Of a stretch of DNA of 37,078 nucleotides, positions 7,195 through 36,392 are shown one piece after another. The first letter of the stretch is position 1. Each line of letters begins with the position of its first letter. The notes under the pieces are model-generated. The model searched no databases and had not been told where the DNA came from. It worked only from the letters and a program-made list of their open reading frames with translations. The translations under genes and the position numbers were made by a program. Location: positions 1 through 37,078 of IMG/VR virus record IMGVR_UViG_3300020424_000010; one strand, given 5' to 3'. The stretch comes from a virus.

Positions 7195-8694
7195 TTAAAA
7201 TTCCACTACAATTTTTATATCTTCAGTTTGGTCAGATGCTCTTGATATTACTCTTCTGTTTTCTACATAAAGTATCTCACCAGTATCAGCATCAAATTCT
7301 GGTGTTGCATATCCACTTGCAAACACAACATTATTGACTGTTTGACTTGCAGTATCTATACTATAACTTGCAGTTGATGTACCACCAGTTATTGCATTAT
7401 TTCCAGAGAACGCAGTAAGATTACTATTTGCATCTAAACCATATGTTGCGTAACCCTCTTGACAATAATATAATATTTTATTTGTTGCATCCCATTCTAC
7501 AACTCTTCCTCTTGCACCAGTTGTTGCTTGAGTGATTTGTTCATCTACTTGATAGTTTGTTGTTATAGTTCCAGTAATCTTTACTGCTTTTGTTAATCTT
7601 GCAGTAGACGCTGTAAACGCACTACCACTTGCAGTTGGATTTTTAACAATACCTACTCTTCTAAAATCGTTAACTTGAGTTACATCTGCATCTGCTGGTT
7701 CAAACTTTCCTTGAACCATAACAAAATGTCCACCTAGTTCTTCTATATCATCATCACCATGTCCACCTAATGGTGCAATTATTGGTGTGATTGAACCAGC
7801 TGTTGCAGAATTCCATTGAGTAAGAGTTGCACCAGAGATTGCAGAGGATAATCCAGCATCTGTAAATATACCACCAGATGCAAGACTTATTGATGCAAAA
7901 CTATATCCACTACCAGCTGCGTGAAGATAAGTGTTTGTTGCATTGTTTGAACCAAAAACTGTAATTTGTCCACCACTAACAACAAGAGCAACAACACCAC
8001 CAGTACCATCACCTCTAACAGATGTATAAAAAGTTCCATTAGGATAACCAGAACCAGTATTTGTTACCATAACAACATCTATTCCACGATTATTAGATTC
8101 ATTTGAATTTACTTTAACAGGCATAAAGTCAGTTGTCAAGAAGTTTTGTACCTCTGAAGTTGTCAACTGATACATAAATTTTAAGTAATAATTACTATCA
8201 TGCCAGAAAGGTGCGTTACCAGTTGATGTTGGTTCACTTCCAGATATGTTTGTTGCACCATCTTGTGCTGGGTCACCATTGTAAAGAACTTTATAAACTT
8301 TATTTTCAGATGTTTTAAAATAATATGTAGAGTCAAATAAATTTGTTGCACCACTTGAACTTGATGTTTTTGTTGGATAAGCACCAGAGGTTTGTGTTCC
8401 AGCAATATCATGTCTATACATATCAAATGATGCAGAAGTAGAATAATCTCTTCTTGGTATAACCATTTTAATATTTGAAGCACCTACTAGTTTTGCAGCT
8501 AACATATCATCAAAGTAAAGTGATTCTGGTTGTACAGAATCTACTGGAACTGGTGGAACACTATCTGAAGTTGCACCCTCTGAAGTCCAAGGTTGTGATT
8601 TACCTATGAACACATAATACTTACTTGCAGTTAGGTCTGCAAAAAACAAGTCTGCATTTGACTGTCTAAATTTTTCCGTGATTATTGCGGCCAT
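7195..8694 (-). CDS. 8: Baseplate wedge protein gp8
   Basis: A 499-aa protein that keeps the diagnostic spacing of T4 gp8. It has FIGKSQPW (T4: FGRSEPW) near residue 30, VPPVPVDSV near residue 50 (T4: PPYPTDSV), and MVIPRRDY near residue 77 (T4: AVIPRRDW). gp8 is a dimeric component of the baseplate wedge that interacts with gp10, gp7 and gp6. It is longer than T4 gp8 (about 334 aa). The extra length is in beta-rich Thr/Gly/Ser sequence and includes a YQVDEQITQATTGARGRV repeat near residue 380 like those in its neighbours. The Shine-Dalgarno AGGAAA lies 6 nt before the ATG, and an exact late-promoter motif lies 19 nt upstream. Confidence 0.88.
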   Translation of the reverse strand: MAAIITEKFRQSNADLFFADLTASKYYVFIGKSQPWTSEGATSDSVPPVPVDSVQPESLYFDDMLAAKLVGASNIKMVIPRRDYSTSASFDMYRHDIAGTQTSGAYPTKTSSSSGATNLFDSTYYFKTSENKVYKVLYNGDPAQDGATNISGSEPTSTGNAPFWHDSNYYLKFMYQLTTSEVQNFLTTDFMPVKVNSNESNNRGIDVVMVTNTGSGYPNGTFYTSVRGDGTGGVVALVVSGGQITVFGSNNATNTYLHAAGSGYSFASISLASGGIFTDAGLSSAISGATLTQWNSATAGSITPIIAPLGGHGDDDIEELGGHFVMVQGKFEPADADVTQVNDFRRVGIVKNPTASGSAFTASTARLTKAVKITGTITTNYQVDEQITQATTGARGRVVEWDATNKILYYCQEGYATYGLDANSNLTAFSGNNAITGGTSTASYSIDTASQTVNNVVFASGYATPEFDADTGEILYVENRRVISRASDQTEDIKIVVEF

Positions 8695-8711: not shown

Positions 8712-9080
8712 TTATTTATATGGTGATGTACCAAGCATATTTTCATTCCATGTCTTTTTTAACTCATCTATATCTTTTGCAGAGTCAATCTTTGTATCTG
8801 CTGGTAAATCTCTTAGTACTTTTTTCTTATCTGCAATCTCTTTTGCTTTTGCAGTATTACCATCTTCTAATGCTCTCATATAATTAACATCTTCTAATTC
8901 TAGAAGTGGTTTTCTAACCTCACGAATTTTATCTTTAAATAAAGTTTTAGCAGTTGCTAAATCTTCAGAAATCACATCACCATTGATAACCCATGCGTTA
9001 CGAAAATGTCTAAACTGAGGTGTTTTTGCAATAGAACTATCAATGGTCTTTCCATTTTTATCTTGTATATAAGTAGTCAT
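8712..9080 (-). CDS. Tail-assembly-chaperone-like protein (Phage_tail_APC type)
   Basis: A 122-aa protein starting after GGAGAAAAAT. The C-terminal half has the pattern KPLLELEDVNYMRALEDG then KKKVLRDLPADT and a final LKKTWNENMLG. This resembles the small tail/fibre assembly chaperones of the Phage_tail_APC type, whose hallmark is a 'DW..L' segment followed by 'LRDLP'. The N-terminal part, TPQFRHFRNAWVINGDV, resembles the C-terminus of the next gene upstream (TWRNAWKISEDV). Its position downstream of the short adhesin genes fits a chaperone for fibre assembly. The family call rests on motif memory. Confidence 0.5.
   Translation of the reverse strand: MTTYIQDKNGKTIDSSIAKTPQFRHFRNAWVINGDVISEDLATAKTLFKDKIREVRKPLLELEDVNYMRALEDGNTAKAKEIADKKKVLRDLPADTKIDSAKDIDELKKTWNENMLGTSPYK
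8713..8720 (-). promoter_or_regulatory. T4-type late promoter (TATAAATA) for gp8
   Basis: On the minus strand the octamer reads TATAAATA, the exact T4 late-promoter -10 element. It overlaps the stop codon of the upstream gene and lies 18 nt before the gp8 start. This leaves room for a short leader containing AGGAAA. T4-type late promoters need no -35 element. Confidence 0.7.
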
Positions 9081-9089
9081 ATTTTTCTC

Positions 9090-9572
9090 CTATGCGACCA
9101 TTTCTACTTTGACATCTTCAGATATTTTCCATGCATTTCTCCATGTTCTTTCTGAAGGTAATTGATTCTTTTTACATATAATCATTCTAGGTTTATTACC
9201 TTTGTTCCAATTTCTCCAAACTTTTTCTGGAATATCTTTTTGAATTAAATATTCTATAGCTTGTTCTTCAGTCATTGCATCAATAGGTTTTGTATTATGT
9301 AGTAAGTATCCCCTAGTATGTTTTTTAAAATCTGGTTTTGATTCATCTTTTTTGAGTTCCCAGTAAACTTCTACTGGTGGTAGTATTCCACCTTGTAATG
9401 CACACGCTAACCAGTTTGGGTCTGGTATAGTAATCTTTGCTGGTTCATCTGGTTTATCTACATCTTCCCAAACTATCCTATAATCTGTTTGAACACCGTC
9501 TAAGTTTTCTTTCGCCCAACACAATCTATCCCAAAGATGAGTTCCTTGAAACTCTGGTGTTTTTATTGTCAT
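9090..9572 (-). CDS. Conserved tail-region protein of unknown function, 160 aa
   Basis: A soluble 160-aa protein rich in Trp, Lys and Asp, quite unlike the Thr/Ala-rich fibres around it. The C-terminus (PSERTWRNAWKISEDV) resembles the N-terminal RNAW...DV motif of the next gene, so both may act on the same partner. It starts at an ATGA overlap with the preceding short adhesin, using the embedded GGAGAT as ribosome site. It may be a fibre-assembly factor; no domain is recognised. Confidence 0.6.
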   Translation of the reverse strand: MTIKTPEFQGTHLWDRLCWAKENLDGVQTDYRIVWEDVDKPDEPAKITIPDPNWLACALQGGILPPVEVYWELKKDESKPDFKKHTRGYLLHNTKPIDAMTEEQAIEYLIQKDIPEKVWRNWNKGNKPRMIICKKNQLPSERTWRNAWKISEDVKVEMVA

Positions 9573-9583
9573 GCTAAATCTCC
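9569..9583 (-). repeat. Gene-junction repeat, copy 1 (GGAGATTTAGCATGA)
   Basis: This 15-nt sequence is identical to 10012-10026. It encodes GDLA-stop, and contains the Shine-Dalgarno GGAGAT and the overlapping ATG of the following gene. Confidence 0.85.
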
Positions 9584-10015
9584 TGCTACATGATTTGTAA
9601 CTATACTACTATCTCCATTACCACTAACCGCTGCTGCTAATCTTATTTTCATTGTTGTTGTAGTGTTAGCATCAGAAAAAGCTATATTAATCTTTGCACC
9701 GTGGTCTACATCACCAGCACCACAAGTTTGAGAGTAGTTAGCATTAGCCATAGCAGTTTGCATTGTCATAGTGTAAACACCAGTTGCATTATCTGTAATG
9801 CTTGAACAATTAAAATTATCATCTATAGCGATAGTGCCTGTACCATTAAATCTAATCCAAGATTTTATTAATCCTTGTTGGACATTTGTCTGATTACTAC
9901 CCTCACCTCTAATTGTCAAAGAATTTGCAGAAGCACTCACTACTGGTGTATTACCAAGAGTTATGTTATTAGCTGCAGTAACCCCTTTAATTGTATCTGC
10001 TGATATTTGACTCAT
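9569..10015 (-). CDS. Short adhesin / fibre-tip-like protein (paralogue A)
   Basis: 148 aa. It opens with MSQISADTIKGVTAANNI, a short tag related to those of the next two genes upstream, followed by a beta-rich globular domain with ATGVYTMTMQTAMANANYSQ. This sequence type is common in phage fibre tips. It ends in GDLA, exactly like its 148-aa neighbour. The last 15 bases (GGAGATTTAGCATGA) encode the tail, the stop, the ribosome site and the next start. It is probably a virion receptor-contact protein. Confidence 0.65.
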   Translation of the reverse strand: MSQISADTIKGVTAANNITLGNTPVVSASANSLTIRGEGSNQTNVQQGLIKSWIRFNGTGTIAIDDNFNCSSITDNATGVYTMTMQTAMANANYSQTCGAGDVDHGAKINIAFSDANTTTTMKIRLAAAVSGNGDSSIVTNHVAGDLA

Positions 10016-10026
10016 GCTAAATCTCC
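10012..10026 (-). repeat. Gene-junction repeat, copy 2 (GGAGATTTAGCATGA)
   Basis: This is the second identical copy of the junction, ending the other 148-aa gene and starting the next. The two copies flank one complete adhesin gene and could serve as homology for module exchange or duplication. Confidence 0.85.
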
Positions 10027-10458
10027 AAATACTATATTCGCCATGCCATCTTGGTCAATGCCATTACCATTTGAATAGGCAATATGACAACCTAAAGAAG
10101 ATGTAGCATACTCTCCAGATGTAACATGATTTACTCTCATTCCAGTAACACCGGCTCTATTTCCTTGTGCTGAAGAAACAGTACCAGCAGAGGAAAAATT
10201 GTTAGAGAAATTTAAAGTAAATGTACCAGTTCCATCATCAGATGTAGATGAAATATTAAATGAATTACCACTTGAGTTAGTACCTATATCATATTTACTT
10301 GTTGCTTTTGCAATACAAGAAACTAAATTCTGTGTAACACTTGTACCACCATCCGACTCATACACAGATGTATTCTTAACTCTTATATCGACTCCAAGAG
10401 AACCACCAGTTTTTCTGATTGTATCACCATGAAGATTTGTTGCTGTAATTGTACTCAT
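10012..10458 (-). CDS. Short adhesin / fibre-tip-like protein (paralogue B)
   Basis: 148 aa, the same length as its downstream neighbour and with the same final GDLA and the same 15-nt gene junction. The N-terminal tag MSTITATNLHGDTIRKTGGS matches that of the C1q-like protein (MSTIVATNIQSDTIKHSGGT). The body has DDGTGTFTLNFSNNFSSAGT, the fibre-tip pattern seen in paralogue A. The variable bodies on a shared tag and tail suggest an exchangeable module. The role in host recognition is inferred. Confidence 0.65.
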   Translation of the reverse strand: MSTITATNLHGDTIRKTGGSLGVDIRVKNTSVYESDGGTSVTQNLVSCIAKATSKYDIGTNSSGNSFNISSTSDDGTGTFTLNFSNNFSSAGTVSSAQGNRAGVTGMRVNHVTSGEYATSSLGCHIAYSNGNGIDQDGMANIVFGDLA

Positions 10459-10462
10459 CTTT

Positions 10463-10996
10463 TTATCCTACTAGATATCCATTAAAATTTGTAAATGAAA
10501 AAGTACTATTGGTGTTTTGACTAGAACCAGTATTATGTTGAACTTGTACATCTAAATAATCACTTGAACCATTCATATAAATTATTCCACTAACATGAGC
10601 AGGAACATGAGCATTAGTTGCATTAGATTCCATGCCAAGATTTCTATATACAGAAGAATTATTTTTAGTAATATAAATTATAACATAATCTGGAGTTGTT
10701 GATTTGATAGTAACAGTTGAAGAAACAAAATAGTACCCAGCAACTTGTGGTATATATCTATAATTTGATGTATTAAAATAACCACCAATATCAAATGCTC
10801 CAGAAGAAGTCTTATCATTGAACTGTACTACTGTAGCAGTCGCATTAGAAATTGCTTGGTCAGATGACTGTTTTACTCTAAACATAGGTTTAGCAGGTTG
10901 AGTTACTACACCAGCACTAGTAATACTAATTGCAGAAGTACCACCACTATGTTTAATAGTGTCAGATTGAATATTAGTTGCGACTATTGTACTCAT
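10463..10996 (-). CDS. Adhesin with C1q/TNF-like beta-jellyroll domain
   Basis: 177 aa. After the tag MSTIVATNIQSDTIKHSGGT, residues about 38-176 have the layout of a C1q-like domain. These include FRVKQSSDQAISNATATVVQ, FDIGGYFNTSNYRYIPQ, then VAGYYFVSSTVTI and a terminal NSTFSFTNFNGYLVG. C1q-like jellyrolls form trimers and occur at phage fibre tips, where they bind ligands. The gene starts at an ATGA overlap with the 114-aa gene upstream. A receptor-binding role is inferred from the fold and position. Confidence 0.7.
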   Translation of the reverse strand: MSTIVATNIQSDTIKHSGGTSAISITSAGVVTQPAKPMFRVKQSSDQAISNATATVVQFNDKTSSGAFDIGGYFNTSNYRYIPQVAGYYFVSSTVTIKSTTPDYVIIYITKNNSSVYRNLGMESNATNAHVPAHVSGIIYMNGSSDYLDVQVQHNTGSSQNTNSTFSFTNFNGYLVG

Positions 10997-11337
10997 ACCG
11001 CTACGAACCTTCCACCACTTTGTACTGTTAATGTTACACCATTTGCAATCGTAACTGGGCCAGCCATTGATGCATTTTGTGTACCAGTAATAGTAACATT
11101 ACCAGATAGAGTTTGATTATTTACACGCATTAGTGCATTTAATCCACTTGATGTGGTATCACCTATTGCAGTTCCAGAACTATTAACAAAATATGCAACT
11201 GCACCACTTCCAGAAAACTTTGCATTTGTTACAGCATTATCAGCAATATCTGCTGTTGCGATAGTCCCATCAGCAATCTTAGCTGATGTGACTGAATTCG
11301 CACCAAGTGAATTTGTACCTAAAGTATCTATCGCCAT
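10993..11337 (-). CDS. Short fibre-like repeat protein, 114 aa
   Basis: Residues 1-45 carry the degenerate repeat common in phage fibre shafts (VTSAKIADGTIATADIADNA followed by VTNAKF). The rest is beta-rich and ends in GGRFVAV. It is likely a fibre shaft or connector segment made as a separate chain. It lies between the 396-aa fibre-like protein and the C1q-like protein, with a clear AAGGAG ribosome site upstream. Confidence 0.65.
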   Translation of the reverse strand: MAIDTLGTNSLGANSVTSAKIADGTIATADIADNAVTNAKFSGSGAVAYFVNSSGTAIGDTTSSGLNALMRVNNQTLSGNVTITGTQNASMAGPVTIANGVTLTVQSGGRFVAV

Positions 11338-11349
11338 GACTACTCCTTA

Positions 11350-12540
11350 TTAAGATATAGTAGTTCCATTATTTGAAAGAACTGACCATCCACCAGTCGT
11401 ATTATAAATTAAGACTACACTATCACCTACGTCATTGAACACAATGGTTGAACCACCAGCTAAAGTTGCTGGAGTAAGTGTTGCATCACCACCATCTGTT
11501 ACCATTGAGATAGTTTTGATTTGTCCATTTACACCATTTGCAAGTGTGAACGCTTGAGCACCAGTTGTTACAATCGTGCTGTGTGCTGTATTGAGTGATA
11601 ATGCAACATCAGAACCACCACCAGTTGCAGTTTCAGTAGCGACAACAGTTTTATTTCCACTCAACAATGTGTTTGGAGTTGCTCTTGCAGAACCACCATC
11701 TTTAGGTAACTGAAAGAAACCACTATCACTAGATGCGTGTGGTTGACCCATCAGAGTTTGACCGTGAGTATTTTGTTCACAGTTAAGTTTAATCTGACCT
11801 TGGTTATTTGCACCAGTAGTTGAACGAACAGTTACAACACCAGTACCTTTTGGAAGTAATGCAAGGTCAACATTGGTTTCACCAGATGCACCAATAATAG
11901 GTGCAGTTGATGTGGCTGCAACAGCAGAACCACCAGTAGCTGCGTTTGTAATTTCAATTTCATTTACTGCACTTGCAGTTGTTTGAAAAATTAATGACTC
12001 AGCACCATTTGCATCTGCAATAAAACCACCATCTGCAAACTTAGGTGCAGTTAATGTTTTATTCGATAATGTAGTTGTCGAAGTTGCAGTAACAGTAATA
12101 TCAGATGTAAAAGCAACTGTACCACTACCATCTTTAAATGTTATTGTTCTATCAGCAGTTGGATTAGTAATTGAAAATGTAGTTTCATTTGCATCTGCAC
12201 CAGAACCTTCAAAAACTAAAGCAGCAGTTCCAGCGAGGACTGCACCAGTTAAATCTAATGTACCAGTTACAGTTGCAGTTGAAGCAACAGTTCCAGTTAA
12301 CGTAGCTGCATTAATAGTTGGGTTAGTTAAAGTTTTATTTGTAAGAGTGTCGGTTGTCTGTCTCAATACAACATTGTCTGAAGTTAACGCAGTTCCATTA
12401 CTGATACTACCAGTTGAAACTCCATTAATCTTAGCATATAATTCTATGAGGTTATCATTGATTTTGTCACCGCCAACTCTTAATGTATCTCCAGTTCCAT
12501 CATTGGCGGAACTACCAATACCTAGTAATTGAAATGCCAT
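11350..12540 (-). CDS. Fibre-like virion protein, 396 aa
   Basis: The N-terminus, MAFQLLGIGSSANDGTGDTL followed by RVGGDKINDN, is a typical marine-phage fibre attachment head. The middle is Thr/Ala/Gly-rich repeats (LTNKTLTNPTINAATLTGT, then TTLSNKTLTAPKF), and the C-terminus resembles a small beta-domain (VLIYNTTGGWSVLSNNG). It has no enzymatic motif. It is the first gene after an exact late promoter, with TAGGAGATA as ribosome site, and it heads the adhesin gene row. It is likely the anchor for the short adhesins below it, though this is inferred. Confidence 0.7.
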   Translation of the reverse strand: MAFQLLGIGSSANDGTGDTLRVGGDKINDNLIELYAKINGVSTGSISNGTALTSDNVVLRQTTDTLTNKTLTNPTINAATLTGTVASTATVTGTLDLTGAVLAGTAALVFEGSGADANETTFSITNPTADRTITFKDGSGTVAFTSDITVTATSTTTLSNKTLTAPKFADGGFIADANGAESLIFQTTASAVNEIEITNAATGGSAVAATSTAPIIGASGETNVDLALLPKGTGVVTVRSTTGANNQGQIKLNCEQNTHGQTLMGQPHASSDSGFFQLPKDGGSARATPNTLLSGNKTVVATETATGGGSDVALSLNTAHSTIVTTGAQAFTLANGVNGQIKTISMVTDGGDATLTPATLAGGSTIVFNDVGDSVVLIYNTTGGWSVLSNNGTTIS

Positions 12541-15467: not shown

Positions 15468-17426
15468 TTAATATCCACTTGAACTAGAACCACTTGAACT
15501 TGATGAAGAGGTTGAACCAGATGTTGATGTTGTTGTTGAACTTGTTGTTGATGTCGTACCACTATATGAACTTGTAGTTGAAACACCTATACCAGCTGCA
15601 GAACTTCCAGTTGCGATTGAGTCTACAGTTGATGATATTGTTAATGCACCAGTATCTATTCTTACAACTTGATTACGAACACCCACAACATCATTTGACT
15701 CTGGTGTAACAATCAATCTGATACTTGTTGAAGTTGCACCATCTACAGTTGATATACTTGTAATATTTAAATTTGTTAAAATAATCTCACCAGTAACATA
15801 ATTAATAGTACCAGCAGTATTATCTTCGTAAGTTGTTGTTGTACCATCTTGAACATAAAACATTCTTACATTACCATTACCATCATCATTTAAAAACATT
15901 TCATTTGTATTACCAGAAATGAAAAACCCACTTGATGAAAGTATTCCACCAGTATCCGACATATGTCCAGAGTGTGGATTAAACAATGCGTTGTTAAATG
16001 GTATTGTATATTTTGTAGGACTATTTAATGTTGGTACAAAATCTTTTGATAATTTAATTGTTGTAATATTTGAAGTTATTGAATTATCAGAATCGTCTAT
16101 TAATCTAGTTATTTGTGAGTGTCTAAACACTCCATCAAAAGTTGATAAATTATTTGTGTTAAAATTTAATATTGTATCTCTTACATTTGATATTAATGTT
16201 TCAGATGTTTTTGTTGTATTCTTTGCGTTATACTGAAACACTACATTCATTCTTATATCAATATATTCTGGGTCTATAATTATTGGTGTTACAGATGCGA
16301 TAGTAAAGTCATTTTTTAAATCGTTTACGATTTGTTGTTTTGCTGATGCAGTAATAGAACCTAGTGTTGGTACAATTGAAATATAAACTCTTCCGTAAAC
16401 TGGAACGTCATTATCTTCACCACCATATACTTGAACAGATTTTGTATTAGGATAAACTTTAGGTATGATTGATTTGTAATCATTAGTTGTAACTGCACGA
16501 CCTTGAGCTGCATAATCTAATGGTGCGTTTAATTTAATAGATTGTATAGTTTCTCTTTCTGCACCACCAGATGCAACATCAACTGTAAGTATTGATAAAT
16601 CTGTTACAGTAGATATCGCATTAGAAGATGTAAATGAAGAGGCACCATTTGCAACTGTTTTATTTGTTACAACATATCTTAATCTCACAACATTATTATC
16701 TGATAGTGCTTTACCAGTAATACCATCACCAAAGTAAACTTCAAACTTACCATCTATACTTTCTTGTAAGTAATATACATTTGAGGTCTGTGTAACTTTA
16801 GTCAAGTCAGTTGCAAGAGTAAAAGTTGTAGATGAGGTGGAAGTAGATGTTTCAAAAACATCAACTAGTAATGTTGTAGTATCTGCGTTCTCATCATTGA
16901 GAGTAAATTTTTGTTCTAAGTTTTGATTGTCTACCGTGTAACGATTTGTTACATAAGTTCCTTCATAAATTGGTATACTGTTAAATGCAAGAACTCCATT
17001 TGATAAATTTGTAGTATGTTCAGAGGTTGTAACAAATTGATATGATACACCATCAATACTAGATGTAAAAGTATATCCGACTGGAATTGTTGCAGTTGTT
17101 AAATTACCAAAATCATTTAATTCAATATTAACACTTGCCATTGGTGCTCTTGGTGAACTCGGTGTATATCCTAAAGTCTTTGCATGAGATACAACTGATT
17201 GTCTTAGAGCAGCAGTATCAAGAAAAGATTCGTTAGCAGCCATGTTGGTATTCATTGCAAGGTAATGTGTATTATACGCAAGAACATCTAACAACGCATT
17301 GATACCAGAACCCTCAAAATCATAATCTGTAAATTCTGATTGGTTTCTCATAAATGTTTTAAGATTTGTTTTGATGTTATCAAAATCTAATTCTGAAACT
17401 GAAAGTTTTTTATCTGTAGTAGCCAC
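15468..17426 (-). CDS. 6: Baseplate wedge protein gp6 (baseplate J-like)
   Basis: 652 aa, close to T4 gp6 (660 aa). The N-terminus has the characteristic FEGSGINALLDVLAYNTHYL near residues 38-57 and ANESFLDTAALRQSVVSHAK near residues 64-83, found in gp6 and baseplate J proteins. gp6 dimers link neighbouring wedges into the baseplate ring. Residues from about 598 to 652 are an unusual Ser/Thr/Gly tail ending in a single Tyr, which I do not know from T4 gp6. The gene overlaps the gp25 stop by one base. Confidence 0.9.
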   Translation of the reverse strand: MATTDKKLSVSELDFDNIKTNLKTFMRNQSEFTDYDFEGSGINALLDVLAYNTHYLAMNTNMAANESFLDTAALRQSVVSHAKTLGYTPSSPRAPMASVNIELNDFGNLTTATIPVGYTFTSSIDGVSYQFVTTSEHTTNLSNGVLAFNSIPIYEGTYVTNRYTVDNQNLEQKFTLNDENADTTTLLVDVFETSTSTSSTTFTLATDLTKVTQTSNVYYLQESIDGKFEVYFGDGITGKALSDNNVVRLRYVVTNKTVANGASSFTSSNAISTVTDLSILTVDVASGGAERETIQSIKLNAPLDYAAQGRAVTTNDYKSIIPKVYPNTKSVQVYGGEDNDVPVYGRVYISIVPTLGSITASAKQQIVNDLKNDFTIASVTPIIIDPEYIDIRMNVVFQYNAKNTTKTSETLISNVRDTILNFNTNNLSTFDGVFRHSQITRLIDDSDNSITSNITTIKLSKDFVPTLNSPTKYTIPFNNALFNPHSGHMSDTGGILSSSGFFISGNTNEMFLNDDGNGNVRMFYVQDGTTTTYEDNTAGTINYVTGEIILTNLNITSISTVDGATSTSIRLIVTPESNDVVGVRNQVVRIDTGALTISSTVDSIATGSSAAGIGVSTTSSYSGTTSTTSSTTTSTSGSTSSSSSSGSSSSGY

Positions 17427-17866
17427 TATCTTAATCTCTCTAATGTAAATGATAAATCAACAAGTTCTGCTGGTGCATTTTGTAAATAAAACTCTACAGT
17501 TACACTATACGCATTTTGGTCAAAGTCTGGAAAAACTTCAACACCAGCAAGTAATGCTCTTGGTTCAAAGTTATTAATTGTATCTTCTATCTTTCTTGCA
17601 AGAGTATTTGCAACAAATGGTGTCATATTTTCAAATAATAAATCACGAACACCAGAACCTATTTCTGGATGAAAGGGTTTTTCGTAGTGTCCATATTGAA
17701 CTAGATTACGAACACTTCTCTTAACAGCAGCTGCATCTGTAAGGACTGTTAAACCTTTTGTTACTGGATGTCTTGAAAAGTTTAAATTCAAATCCCTATA
17801 TTGTTTTGAGGGTCTATCTGAATTATTAGTTCTTTCTGCATCTCTATATGCTGGTTGTACTGCCAT
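17426..17866 (-). CDS. 25: Baseplate wedge protein gp25 (GPW_gp25 family)
   Basis: 146 aa (T4 gp25: 132 aa). The motif PFHPEIGSGVRDLLFENMTP near residue 84 is the signature of the GPW/gp25 family, followed by a helix (ANTLARKIEDTINNFEPR) and the beta strands that end the fold. gp25 joins the wedge core with gp6 and gp53 and contacts the sheath. GAGGAG lies about 8 nt before the ATG and a CTAAATA late-promoter-like motif lies just before that. Confidence 0.9.
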   Translation of the reverse strand: MAVQPAYRDAERTNNSDRPSKQYRDLNLNFSRHPVTKGLTVLTDAAAVKRSVRNLVQYGHYEKPFHPEIGSGVRDLLFENMTPFVANTLARKIEDTINNFEPRALLAGVEVFPDFDQNAYSVTVEFYLQNAPAELVDLSFTLERLR

Positions 17867-19889: not shown

Positions 19890-21275
19890 CTAATTAGGTG
19901 TAGAGGTTTGATTACCAGCAACTCCAGCAGGGTCAGTATGCGTATGACCAGTAAGTAATATACCAGATGCATTTACTTCACTTCCACTAGCAGCCATAGT
20001 AATTGTTCCAACACCAGTTACAGTATCGTTTAAAGTACCACCTATTGTTCTGACAACATTATTAGATATAGTTTCGGTCAAAGATGTTTCCGTAACTATA
20101 GCCATTTCAGTTGCAGATTTAATATTCATTTGTGTTCCAGATATCATAGTTGTTTTACCACTAATAGATGATTGTACATGATTTTGTAATGCAGTAACTT
20201 TGATATCACTAAACACTAATGTTGTTTCATTTTTACCAACTGTTTTCTTATCATCACCTTTTACATTTTCTATTCGATTACCTTTTAATAATATTTCTGT
20301 ATCTGCACCAACTGTTTGAACAAATTTGTCGGAAATGTTTTCTGCAACTGTTCCTCTTATTTCTGCTTGTATGTTTCCACCAGAAGTACCAGCACCAACT
20401 TTCATTAATTTATTTTTATGTATCTTTTGTGTGAAATCACCCTCAACCTCAAGAACATAATCACCTTTAATAAGTTGTCTTACATTTCCATCTACTGTAA
20501 GATTAATACTACCTTGAACATAACAATTTCTGTTTCCAACAACTATTTCATAATCGTCACCAACTATTTTTACAACTTTACTTCCGTCTGGATGTATTTC
20601 TTCAAAAGAACCAGACCTATGATAAGTAAAAAGTCTTTCTCCCTCTGGACTATCATCTATTTCATGTATATGTCCACTTTCTGATTCATGGACATGATTA
20701 AATGGATAAAAAGAAACTGAATTTGATTTTGCATCTAGTTCATTCCATGATGTACGACTTTCTTGAACAGCTGCATCTTCAACTGTTGGTATATAAGGTT
20801 TAGTTGCAATCGGAACTTCAGTAACTTGTGCTTTTCTTCTTGTAAATAATGAGGGATGAGTATCTCCAACTAATCCTTGTGCAAGTCTATTTACGTCAAC
20901 TTCGCCTGTGGTTTTTGGATACACACCATTAGGGTCATTAAATCCTTTAGTACCATCTGGTGAACTCAAATTAAAGCCAGGCAAACTACCCAATATTATT
21001 GGTTCTTGAAACAAAGTATCTCTAAAGAATCCTAAAACCCAAGAACCCTCAACTAAAAATGGTGGTGTTTCTCCCATACCATTCATAGATGGTACAGTTG
21101 TTGGATTCATTACCCACGCCCAAGGTAAATCTTCTGTTTGTATTTCATCTTTGTTTTCTGTGTGATATCCAACTGCACGAACACGAACACGACCAAGTTT
21201 ATTTGGGTCATCTCTATCTTCGACAACTCCAGTAAACCAAGTGAAACCATCTTTTCCGATAAAAAAGTTTTCCAT
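19890..21275 (-). CDS. 5: Baseplate hub/central spike protein gp5, without lysozyme domain
   Basis: 461 aa. Residues 10-125 form the gp5/VgrG OB-fold (WFTGVVEDRDDPNKLGRVRV, WVLGFFRDTLFQEPIILGSL). After a linker, residues about 205-330 carry the spike-entry motif SESGHIHEIDDSPEGERLF and regular beta-helix repeats (VEGDFTQKIHKNKLMKVGAG). The chain ends in a low-complexity tail with GHTHTDPAG. T4 gp5 (575 aa) has a lysozyme domain between the OB-fold and the spike. None is visible here, and the linker (about residues 125-200) is too short for one. No Shine-Dalgarno is seen; a CTAAATA motif ends 5 nt before the ATG. Confidence 0.88.
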   Translation of the reverse strand: MENFFIGKDGFTWFTGVVEDRDDPNKLGRVRVRAVGYHTENKDEIQTEDLPWAWVMNPTTVPSMNGMGETPPFLVEGSWVLGFFRDTLFQEPIILGSLPGFNLSSPDGTKGFNDPNGVYPKTTGEVDVNRLAQGLVGDTHPSLFTRRKAQVTEVPIATKPYIPTVEDAAVQESRTSWNELDAKSNSVSFYPFNHVHESESGHIHEIDDSPEGERLFTYHRSGSFEEIHPDGSKVVKIVGDDYEIVVGNRNCYVQGSINLTVDGNVRQLIKGDYVLEVEGDFTQKIHKNKLMKVGAGTSGGNIQAEIRGTVAENISDKFVQTVGADTEILLKGNRIENVKGDDKKTVGKNETTLVFSDIKVTALQNHVQSSISGKTTMISGTQMNIKSATEMAIVTETSLTETISNNVVRTIGGTLNDTVTGVGTITMAASGSEVNASGILLTGHTHTDPAGVAGNQTSTPN

Positions 21276-24990: not shown

Positions 24991-26016
24991 TTATTCTTCA
25001 CTCCCAAATATTTTATTATGAGTATTATTTACTCTTACAAATGTTGCACACTTAGATAAAGACTTTAATCTTTTTGCACCAACGTAAGTACACGCAGAAC
25101 GAATACCACTAAGAATATCTATCAGAGTATTCTTGACAGGCCCTTTGTAGGGAACTGAAACTGTCTTACCCTCGACACCACGATATTCTCTATGAGGTAC
25201 ATTATGTCTATCCATTGCAGTTTCAGATGCCATACCATAGAATTCCATTTTTCCATTTTTAACAACACCATCACATTCATCATGTCCTGCTAACATTCCA
25301 CCAATCATTACAAAATCAGCACCAGCAGCAAACGCTTTCACGATATCACCAGAATTATTACAACCACCATCTGCAATAATATGTGCATTGAGTCCATGAG
25401 CTGCATCTGCACATTCCATGACAGCGGAAAGTTGTGGATAACCAATTCCAGTTTTAATTCGTGTCGTACAAACAGACCCAGGCCCTACACCTACTTTTAT
25501 AATATCTGCACCAGCAAGAATCAACTCTTGTGTCATATCAGCAGTCACCACATTACCAGCGACAATCGTTGCATCTGGTAATCGCATACGAATATCTTTT
25601 ACTGCATCAATCACAGAAATAGTATATCCGTTTGCAACATCAATACCAATGAACTCCCATTTCAAATGGTGTGTAATTAAATGTTGAATATCATCAACAC
25701 CAGTCATCATACAAACATTTTTACCTAACATCTTATTGTCAGTTGTTCCAACTCTCCACCATGTTGCATCTTTTTTCATATAATGACGAGCAGGACAAGT
25801 AATCATATTCTGTTCTAACATTTTTTCATTCATTTGTGGAGTCCCTACGGTATCCATATTAGATGCCATAATCGGAACACCTTTCCAAGTCTTACCACTA
25901 TGAACAAATGTAAACTCACGATTCATATCAACATCATATCGTGAAGTCAGAGTAGACCGTTTAGGTCGAATCAATACATCATCATAATCAAGTTTTACAT
26001 CATCTTCTATTCTCAT
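24991..26016 (-). CDS. guaC: GMP reductase
   Basis: 341 aa, the length of bacterial GMP reductase (E. coli GuaC is 347), with no CBS insert as found in IMP dehydrogenase. The flavin-free TIM-barrel enzyme converts GMP to IMP and ammonia with NADPH. Visible motifs are [13 protein letters not shown] at 9-21, the catalytic loop [11 protein letters not shown] with Cys183, [19 protein letters not shown], the phosphate-binding [16 protein letters not shown] and [10 protein letters not shown], the flap-region VEGKTVSVP, and [11 protein letters not shown]. The catalytic residues look intact. It overlaps the next upstream gene by 4 nt (ATGA) and shares an operon with the MazG-like gene. It probably shifts guanine nucleotides towards IMP/AMP for an AT-rich genome, or lowers GMP/ppGpp; both are inference. 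Confidence 0.92.
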
Positions 26017-35717: not shown

Positions 35718-36392
35718 TTATCTACGTCTTTGTGCAAGTTCTGATGCAATCCAACGAACTGCTTGAGGTTTAGTTGGTTTACCCTTTATCAATCCTCTGA
35801 TTCTTTTAGTTGCATCTGCAAATAAATCACTATCTGACACACTCACATTATTGTCAACAATTACAAAATTCTTTCCACCAAATAGTCTTTGAAATGCACC
35901 AATATTTTTTTGTACTGCGTTCCACATAGCTTCAACTGCTTTTGGTTGAAGTTTTCTTTTTCTTTGCATATTTCTTTCTTGTGCAATTTCTAAAGATGTG
36001 TTTACAAATATCATATATGTGTCATAACCTATTTGGTCAAGTAGTCTCTTTTGTCTACCAATCTTATTTACATCTTTTCCAGTACCATCAATTATGACAC
36101 CTAGTCTACCATCAACCCATAAATCTTGTCTTTTACTTGTAAGTTTTTTTGCCTTACCTCTTATGTCTTGACCTTTGTCTGAAAATATATCCTCTGGTTT
36201 ACCAGCGTCTAGTCCAGCATCTTCTAGTTTCTTTTCAAATATATCATCACTATTAAGAATTTTCATACCTAATCCACCAGTCGTTTGTCTTACAACAAAT
36301 GACTTACCAGACCCAGGCCCTCCAGCAAGAAATACTGCTTTAAATATGTTGGGGTCGTAAACTCCCTCTTGTATTTGTAAAAATGTTTTCAT
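35718..36392 (-). CDS. Zeta-toxin-like P-loop kinase
   Basis: 224 aa. Walker A GGPGSGKS at 25-32 after KAVFLAGG, then LNSDDIFEKKLEDAGLDAGK, a second acidic strand LGVIIDGTGKD (about 98-108) and an Arg-rich lid region (ERNMQRKRKLQPKAVEA). This is the layout of small-molecule kinases of the zeta-toxin/AAA_33 group, which phosphorylate nucleotides, sugars or cell-wall precursors. The N-terminus (MKTFLQIQEGVYDPNIF) is familiar from marine T4-like phages. Its substrate is unknown. A 57-aa gene overlaps its start. Confidence 0.75.
   Translation of the reverse strand: MKTFLQIQEGVYDPNIFKAVFLAGGPGSGKSFVVRQTTGGLGMKILNSDDIFEKKLEDAGLDAGKPEDIFSDKGQDIRGKAKKLTSKRQDLWVDGRLGVIIDGTGKDVNKIGRQKRLLDQIGYDTYMIFVNTSLEIAQERNMQRKRKLQPKAVEAMWNAVQKNIGAFQRLFGGKNFVIVDNNVSVSDSDLFADATKRIRGLIKGKPTKPQAVRWIASELAQRRR

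Follow-up and report, generated by a model that had tools for sequence, protein, structure and literature searches.

Three consecutive short genes of a marine phage that start alike and end differently raise the question of which part of them is exchanged between phages, which part is kept, and what the kept part is for. The genes lie in the window, by which we mean the whole stretch of 37,078 nucleotides analyzed here, a 37-kb IMG/VR virus record (IMGVR_UViG_3300020424_000010) of a T4-like marine myovirus with its structural genes on the minus strand; the virus is an ocean virus of bacteria. An earlier note, made from the sequence, had described the genes as exchangeable adhesins with a common N-terminal tag. 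The three open reading frames (ORFs) were indeed present on the minus strand at 9569-10996, namely 10463-10996 (177 amino acids), 10012-10458 (148 amino acids) and 9569-10015 (148 amino acids), with N-termini matching those given in that note, and each gene consists of a conserved N-terminal tag followed by a diverged beta head. The whole array adds to this trio the gene of a 114-amino-acid protein (10993-11337) and two downstream genes (9090-9572 and 8712-9080). We think it likely that the array is a receptor-binding cassette of interchangeable parts, made of plugs, a socket and exchangeable adhesin heads.

Kept tags and exchanged heads

The comparison with close relatives rests on two IMG/VR contigs covering the same array, L006 and L086. 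The parts of the three genes, which we refer to as slots 1 to 3, are the following.

10916..10996, minus strand: slot 1 tag (MSTIVATNIQSDTIKHSGG..), 85% amino-acid identity to L006 and L086, where the heads have 27% and 23%
10463..10915, minus strand: slot 1 head, C1q-like by profile match to C1q chains
10327..10458, minus strand: slot 2 tag (MSTITATNLHGDTIRKTGGSLGVDIRVKN..), 98-100% amino-acid identity in L006 and L086
10012..10326, minus strand: slot 2 head, of the GDLA family (371 ORFs), 29-35% amino-acid identity to L006 and L086
9872..10015, minus strand: slot 3 tag (MSQISADTIKGVTAANNITLGNTPVVSASANSLTIRGEG..), 88-92% amino-acid identity in L006 and L086
9569..9871, minus strand: slot 3 head, of the GDLA family, predicted beta-sandwich from a structural model and its fold neighbours

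Most of the flanking 60-base blocks were 80-100% identical in DNA between the window and the two contigs, and inside the tagged genes the DNA identity was about 85-100% over the tag, then 16-75% (mostly below 60%) over the head. At the protein level the window, L006 and L086 share 93-99% identity in the 114-amino-acid protein (the cap) and in the two downstream accessory proteins, c160 and c122, 85-100% in the tags and 18-35% in the heads. This drop behind a kept tag was observed at each of the three slots in each of the three pairs, and the slot 1 head has been replaced by a different head in both L006 and L086, that of L086 being of a different kind. Tags are kept while heads diverge in every slot, and therefore the exchanged unit is the head, not the gene. 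The earlier note had staked its proposal on conservation of the tags in relatives and had expected turnover of the tips, and both were found; it had also supposed that whole genes are swapped, and this part does not hold. With tags retained and heads turning over, the proteins look like separate receptor-binding tips, as had been suggested.

The same uncoupling was observed in a wider set of loci, gathered using c160, gp8, the 114-amino-acid protein and the heads as queries, so that all counts from it are associations in a biased sample. Over 346 members of the GDLA head family, the median identity of the heads was 31% in the 601 pairs whose tags are at least 95% identical and 29% over all pairs, and pairs with heads more than 70% identical often carry unrelated tags. 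A first count gave 47 pairs with high head and low tag identity, including several late-start artefacts of mechanical ORF calling; a re-count on clean starts gave 43 pairs with heads more than 70% identical, 56% of which have tags less than 50% identical, and the correlation between tag and head identity was 0.08 (clean starts only). Heads that are 98% identical stand behind a slot 3 tag in L221 and behind a slot 2 tag in L113. The window slot 3 head has 86% nucleotide identity to a head that sits behind a different N-terminus in L167 and L168, and the slot 1 C1q head has 80% to one in L208 and L209. Heads are thus replaced within genes and shared between slots and between phages, including unrelated viruses.

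Tags 1 and 2 resemble each other more than chance would give (their alignment score of 64 was reached by 0 of 5000 shuffles), and tag 3 taken alone is marginal against them (177 and 207 of 5000). In relatives, related tags stand at the start of hundreds of short ORFs. The slot 2 tag recurs at about 85% nucleotide identity in some 40 loci, many of them resembling Puniceispirillum phage HMO-2011, and the slot 3 tag is of the same type as the slot 2 tag of HMO-like cassettes. Tag identity was 0.43-0.53 within the same slot versus 0.25-0.32 between slots, and tags follow c160 (Mantel r 0.24-0.61) whereas heads hardly do (0.03-0.24). Judged from these alignments the tags are slot-specific, in an order kept across phages, and the single common tag of the earlier note is rejected. 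The ratio of nonsynonymous to synonymous substitution rates (dN/dS) in the slot 2 tag was 0.06, variation being mostly at silent sites, and the tag is therefore kept as a protein, under purifying selection.

The heads had been called unrelated or diverged, with one of them C1q-like. The second part stands for slot 1, since a profile of 17 relatives matched solved C1q chains with an E-value of 7.9e-26 and 13 of the 17 family members matched Pfam C1q (PF00386); the window 177-amino-acid protein by itself gave no Pfam C1q match, and the family profile was needed. The heads of slots 2 and 3 fall in one family (371 unique ORFs in the fetched loci, 316 of them ending in GDLA) and on this grouping are diverged from each other, not unrelated. 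Pfam scans of the GDLA-family heads returned no family, and a PDB sequence search with the head family gave chance-level matches only. An AlphaFold2 (AF2) model of slot 3 (70 sequences) had a mean predicted local distance difference test score (pLDDT) of 78.6, with values above 90 in blocks covering residues 51-90. Among the Foldseek PDB candidates, its nearest solved folds (Z 8.0-5.0) were tips of tailspikes and fibres and H-type lectins, with the phiAB6 tailspike at 8.0, the Pam1 tailspike at 7.8 and Helix agglutinins at 5.6-5.7; LKA1 gp49, AP22 gp53 and R-type pyocin fibres were other neighbours. This list is coherent, and the heads of slots 2 and 3 may tentatively be regarded as H-type-lectin-like.

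A candidate socket and the joint between genes

If the tags are plugs, onto what do they dock? The earlier note had named a 396-amino-acid protein as the docking fibre. Two proteins come into consideration.

11350..12540, minus strand: 396-amino-acid gp9/gp10-type baseplate wedge or tail-fibre connector protein with fibre-like repeats (PF07880, phrog_677)
10993..11337, minus strand: 114-amino-acid short cap or fibre-end protein, with an N-terminal half of the 'MAID' fibre type of myoviruses and a stub as its C-terminal half
10993..11169, minus strand: proposed socket, the C-terminal stub ('..AGPVTIANGVTLTVQSGGRFVAV'), from its association with tagged heads

The 114-amino-acid protein is chimeric: its residues 1-58 gave 57 matches in gp8-type myovirus loci and one in c160 loci, and its residues 59-114 gave 118 in c160 loci and 3 in gp8 loci. 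Tagged heads follow stub-ended proteins in 70 of 73 cases and stub-less fibres in 4 of 55 (Fisher p 4e-27), and by eye three of the four stub-less exceptions are stub variants missed by the search pattern. The 396-amino-acid protein (PF07880 with an E-value of 4.3e-4 over residues 4-56, below the Pfam cut-off; phrog_677 with 1.9e-8) has no comparable link to tags, and almost all sister myovirus loci have a protein of its type, whether or not tagged heads are present. These associations suggest that the better candidate docking partner is likely the C-terminal stub of the 114-amino-acid protein and not the 396-amino-acid protein.

Most of 46 gp8-anchored phage loci have one longer 'MAID'-type fibre between gp9 and gp8; in the window lineage and the myovirus L031 its place is taken by a short protein followed by three tagged proteins. 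In L031, whose gp8 is 50% identical, the short protein is a stub-ended one of 120 amino acids (L031:7198-7560) and the heads are of other families; its cassette between gp9 and gp8 is apparently independent. Natural fusions that carry a GDLA-family head on fibre or cap N-termini (L121:3253-4080, L126:2191-3036 and L082:706-1425) fit a stub-to-head connection. Out of 58 non-redundant stub-to-c160 cassettes, 47 have three ORFs and 11 have four, some of the latter including a chaperone-like ORF, and the second cassette of HMO-like phages has exactly three tagged genes in 15 of 21, all of the GDLA family.

The end of a GDLA-family head also forms a joint with the following gene.

10012..10026, minus strand: joint GGAGATTTAGCATGA, read in the sequence, encoding GDLA-stop and a Shine-Dalgarno-like GGAGA and overlapping the slot 3 ATG
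9569..9583, minus strand: the same joint where slot 3 ends, sharing bases with the start of the 160-amino-acid gene (c160)

In the relatives, the final glycine of GDLA is encoded by GGA in 99% (34% elsewhere) and the final alanine by GCA in 95% (49% elsewhere), and the next start codon overlaps the GDLA stop in 302 of 306. The GGAGA is therefore read here as the Shine-Dalgarno site of the gene that follows; the idea that GDLA is purely a protein signature is weakened, the bias at GGA fitting a ribosome-binding site. Across otherwise dissimilar heads the last 20 bases are 68-79% identical.

In the mechanism that we propose, the terminal stub of the fibre-end protein would be the socket. In each of the three small proteins the tag at the N-terminus would be the plug, specific to its slot, and the C-terminal domain the head, of C1q type in one protein and H-type-lectin-like in two; each protein would probably form its own trimer and plug into the fibre end, giving three different receptor-binding tips per virion. 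Plug and socket would be retained while the heads are replaced by recombination from a pool common to other phages, and as the joint between GDLA and the following gene would serve both as ribosome-binding site and as start overlap, a new head could be inserted without disruption of the operon.

Alternative explanations

Several points weigh against the plug-and-socket mechanism. Docking, the trimer state, presence in virions and receptor binding are inferences. The AF2 model, which is of the monomer only, gives the slot 3 tag no secondary structure, and the fold match of the head is borderline, its best Z of 8.0 and best Foldseek E-value of 0.067 lying in the range of chance matches. Only two close relatives cover the whole array, and the locus set, gathered partly by the cassette itself, was not sampled at random. 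Two or four heads occur in some phages, which makes three a rule with exceptions, and the link between stub and tag could reflect only shared descent of the cassette.

It is unlikely, in our view, that the tag is a mere trimerisation or folding element of proteins that attach elsewhere or are released, with no common socket. The structureless tag of the AF2 monomer can be counted in its favour, as can the trimers that C1q and lectin-like tips form in known proteins; such an element would however need neither slot-specific versions in an order kept across phages nor a tight association with a stub-ended protein. Docking of the tags onto the 396-amino-acid gp9-like protein, with the 114-amino-acid protein just another tip, we hold to be distinctly unlikely. 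The protein is a close neighbour with a gp9/gp10-type N-terminus and fibre repeats, and a T4gp10-like domain is the docking site in phages of the K1-5 and G7C types (PMC6872550), but sister phages that have one ordinary fibre and lack tagged heads carry gp9-like proteins of the same type, and podovirus-type cassettes and prophages have tags without a gp9-type neighbour and with a stub-ended protein before them.

There is a slim chance that recombination of the heads is the main reason why the 5' tags and 3' joints are conserved, as homology arms at the DNA level. Each variable head is flanked by conserved blocks, as this would predict, and the identity of the last 20 bases behind dissimilar heads agrees with it; on the other side, the low dN/dS of the slot 2 tag indicates that it is kept as a protein, and the joint is explained by the ribosome-binding site and start overlap, although both roles may coexist. 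That the heads vary by targeted mutagenesis, through a diversity-generating retroelement or similar, and not by exchange is scarcely credible: the heads are hypervariable and C-terminal, but whole domains are replaced, including by a different kind of head in slot 1 of L086, and nearly the same heads are found again in other phages and next to different tags. No reverse transcriptase turned up among the window ORFs scanned, in which no dedicated retroelement search was made.

Spread, genome setting and known systems

Behind the heads lie the two accessory genes.

9090..9572, minus strand: c160, conserved accessory protein of 160 amino acids
8712..9080, minus strand: c122, accessory protein of 122 amino acids, fibre-chaperone-like by appearance (phrog_20196, E-value 7.8e-28, a PHROG without assigned function)

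Over 27 loci, myovirus and HMO-2011-like, c160 has a mean column identity of 81%, and at least 585 related stretches were found in IMG/VR. It matched no Pfam or PHROG family, and its model (pLDDT 72.5) had no significant match among the Foldseek PDB candidates or in BFVD, which is no evidence of a new fold. It adjoins head arrays in myovirus, podovirus-type and prophage loci, and this gene company suggests a possible assembly factor; c122 travels with it. Outside the window, c160 also turned up in phages of Nostoc and Microcystis, in the record called Dunaliella viridis virus SI2 and, at 75%, in HMO-2011. Among alphaproteobacterial genome contigs with c160, most of those inspected have two or three GDLA-family heads before it, often preceded by a fibre with a stub-like end. 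Rows of GDLA heads beside c160 were seen in the prophage-like regions L252, L253, L254, L257 and L258, the last with two rows that look like a tandem duplication of the array.

The tail-fibre row of HMO-2011 (GU557055) has tags, heads, stub-ended caps, c160 and c122 of the same kind, in a phage of another type that infects SAR116 and has two cassettes versus one here; the annotation of its cassette genes goes no further than putative tail fibre or tail-related protein. In its second cassette (L004:4102-6109, GU557055 26101-28108) a 'TVNGYWSIV' stub is followed by three tagged heads, one of them C1q. By gene content, the cassette is common to HMO-2011-like podoviruses and alphaproteobacterial prophages. 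It is possible, though we would not lean towards it, that stub, slot tags and GDLA joint form a common plug-and-socket standard of unrelated phages (T4-like myoviruses, HMO-2011-like podoviruses and alphaproteobacterial prophages), with one shared head pool and three heads per fibre end, perhaps in hetero-assembly. A strict heterotrimer of three GDLA heads is disfavoured, as heads move between slots (L221 and L113) and C1q or other heads fill some slots.

Other structural genes of the window were located as follows.

19890-21275, minus strand: gp5
17426-17866, minus strand: gp25
15468-17426, minus strand: gp6
7195-8694, minus strand: gp8

The minus-strand order is gp5, gp25, gp6, a 960-amino-acid baseplate protein, the 396-amino-acid gp9/gp10-type protein, the head array, gp8 and a 2250-amino-acid protein in the position of VrlC. 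One operon holds gp25, gp6, a gp9-like gene, gp8 and a very large baseplate protein in the T4-like (Kyanoviridae) order. Among cultured phages, the 960-amino-acid protein has its nearest relatives in Methylophilales phage Melnitz (41% identity) and in the Pelagibacter phages Mosig (34%) and HTVC008M (32%). Elsewhere in the window, we noted an IMP dehydrogenase / GMP reductase domain protein at 24991-26016 (PF00478, E-value 3e-70), a possible auxiliary metabolic gene, and a P-loop kinase-like protein at 35718-36392 that matches AAA_33 (PF13671) and Zeta_toxin (PF06414).

The exchange of tail-fibre adhesins in T-even phages (genes 37 and 38) is one system for comparison; here, in contrast, the exchange affects a number of small, separate genes, every one of which retains a plug of its own. 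Closer in design are the branched receptor-binding systems of the K1-5/SP6, G7C and Klebsiella KP32, Menlow and PhiK64-1 groups, which have several receptor-binding proteins per virion, each with a conserved N-terminal piece, thought to dock on another fibre protein, and a variable rest (PMC6872550). In Klebsiella and Escherichia coli phages, conserved peptides are thought to attach a second receptor-binding protein (PMC6872550). The window array likewise has at least two candidate receptor-binding proteins with a short conserved N-terminus and a variable remainder, but the branched systems use mostly large enzymes that dock on a T4gp10-like domain (PMC6872550), whereas here the heads are lectin-like or C1q domains of about 100 amino acids, usually three per candidate stub socket, with slot-specific tags and a shared accessory gene.

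According to the accessible parts of the two accounts, host-recognition genes including C1q vary within marine phage populations (PMC3909814), and C1q and fibre genes of these metaviromic islands and of the pelagimyophage host-recognition cluster vary strongly between near-identical genomes, as here (PMC3909814, PMC7029224). The pelagimyophage cluster lies elsewhere in the genome, between VrlC and gp14, whereas the window array lies between gp9 and gp8, and those same parts do not describe a design of tag and head, slots or a stub (PMC3909814, PMC7029224). No account of the combination of tag, stub and head was found in the library of openly licensed papers that was searched.

It is still an open question how marine phages keep pace with host surfaces that change fast, and most of the genes by which they recognise hosts lack annotation. 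The cassette would offer a ready-made route for changing which cells the virus sticks to, and the sharing of heads suggests that unrelated phages draw on one head pool. As tag, socket and head can be separated by sequence alone, docking, stoichiometry and receptor specificity are testable in cultured phages such as HMO-2011, and the signature of tag, socket and head gives a way to find receptor-binding heads in metagenomes.

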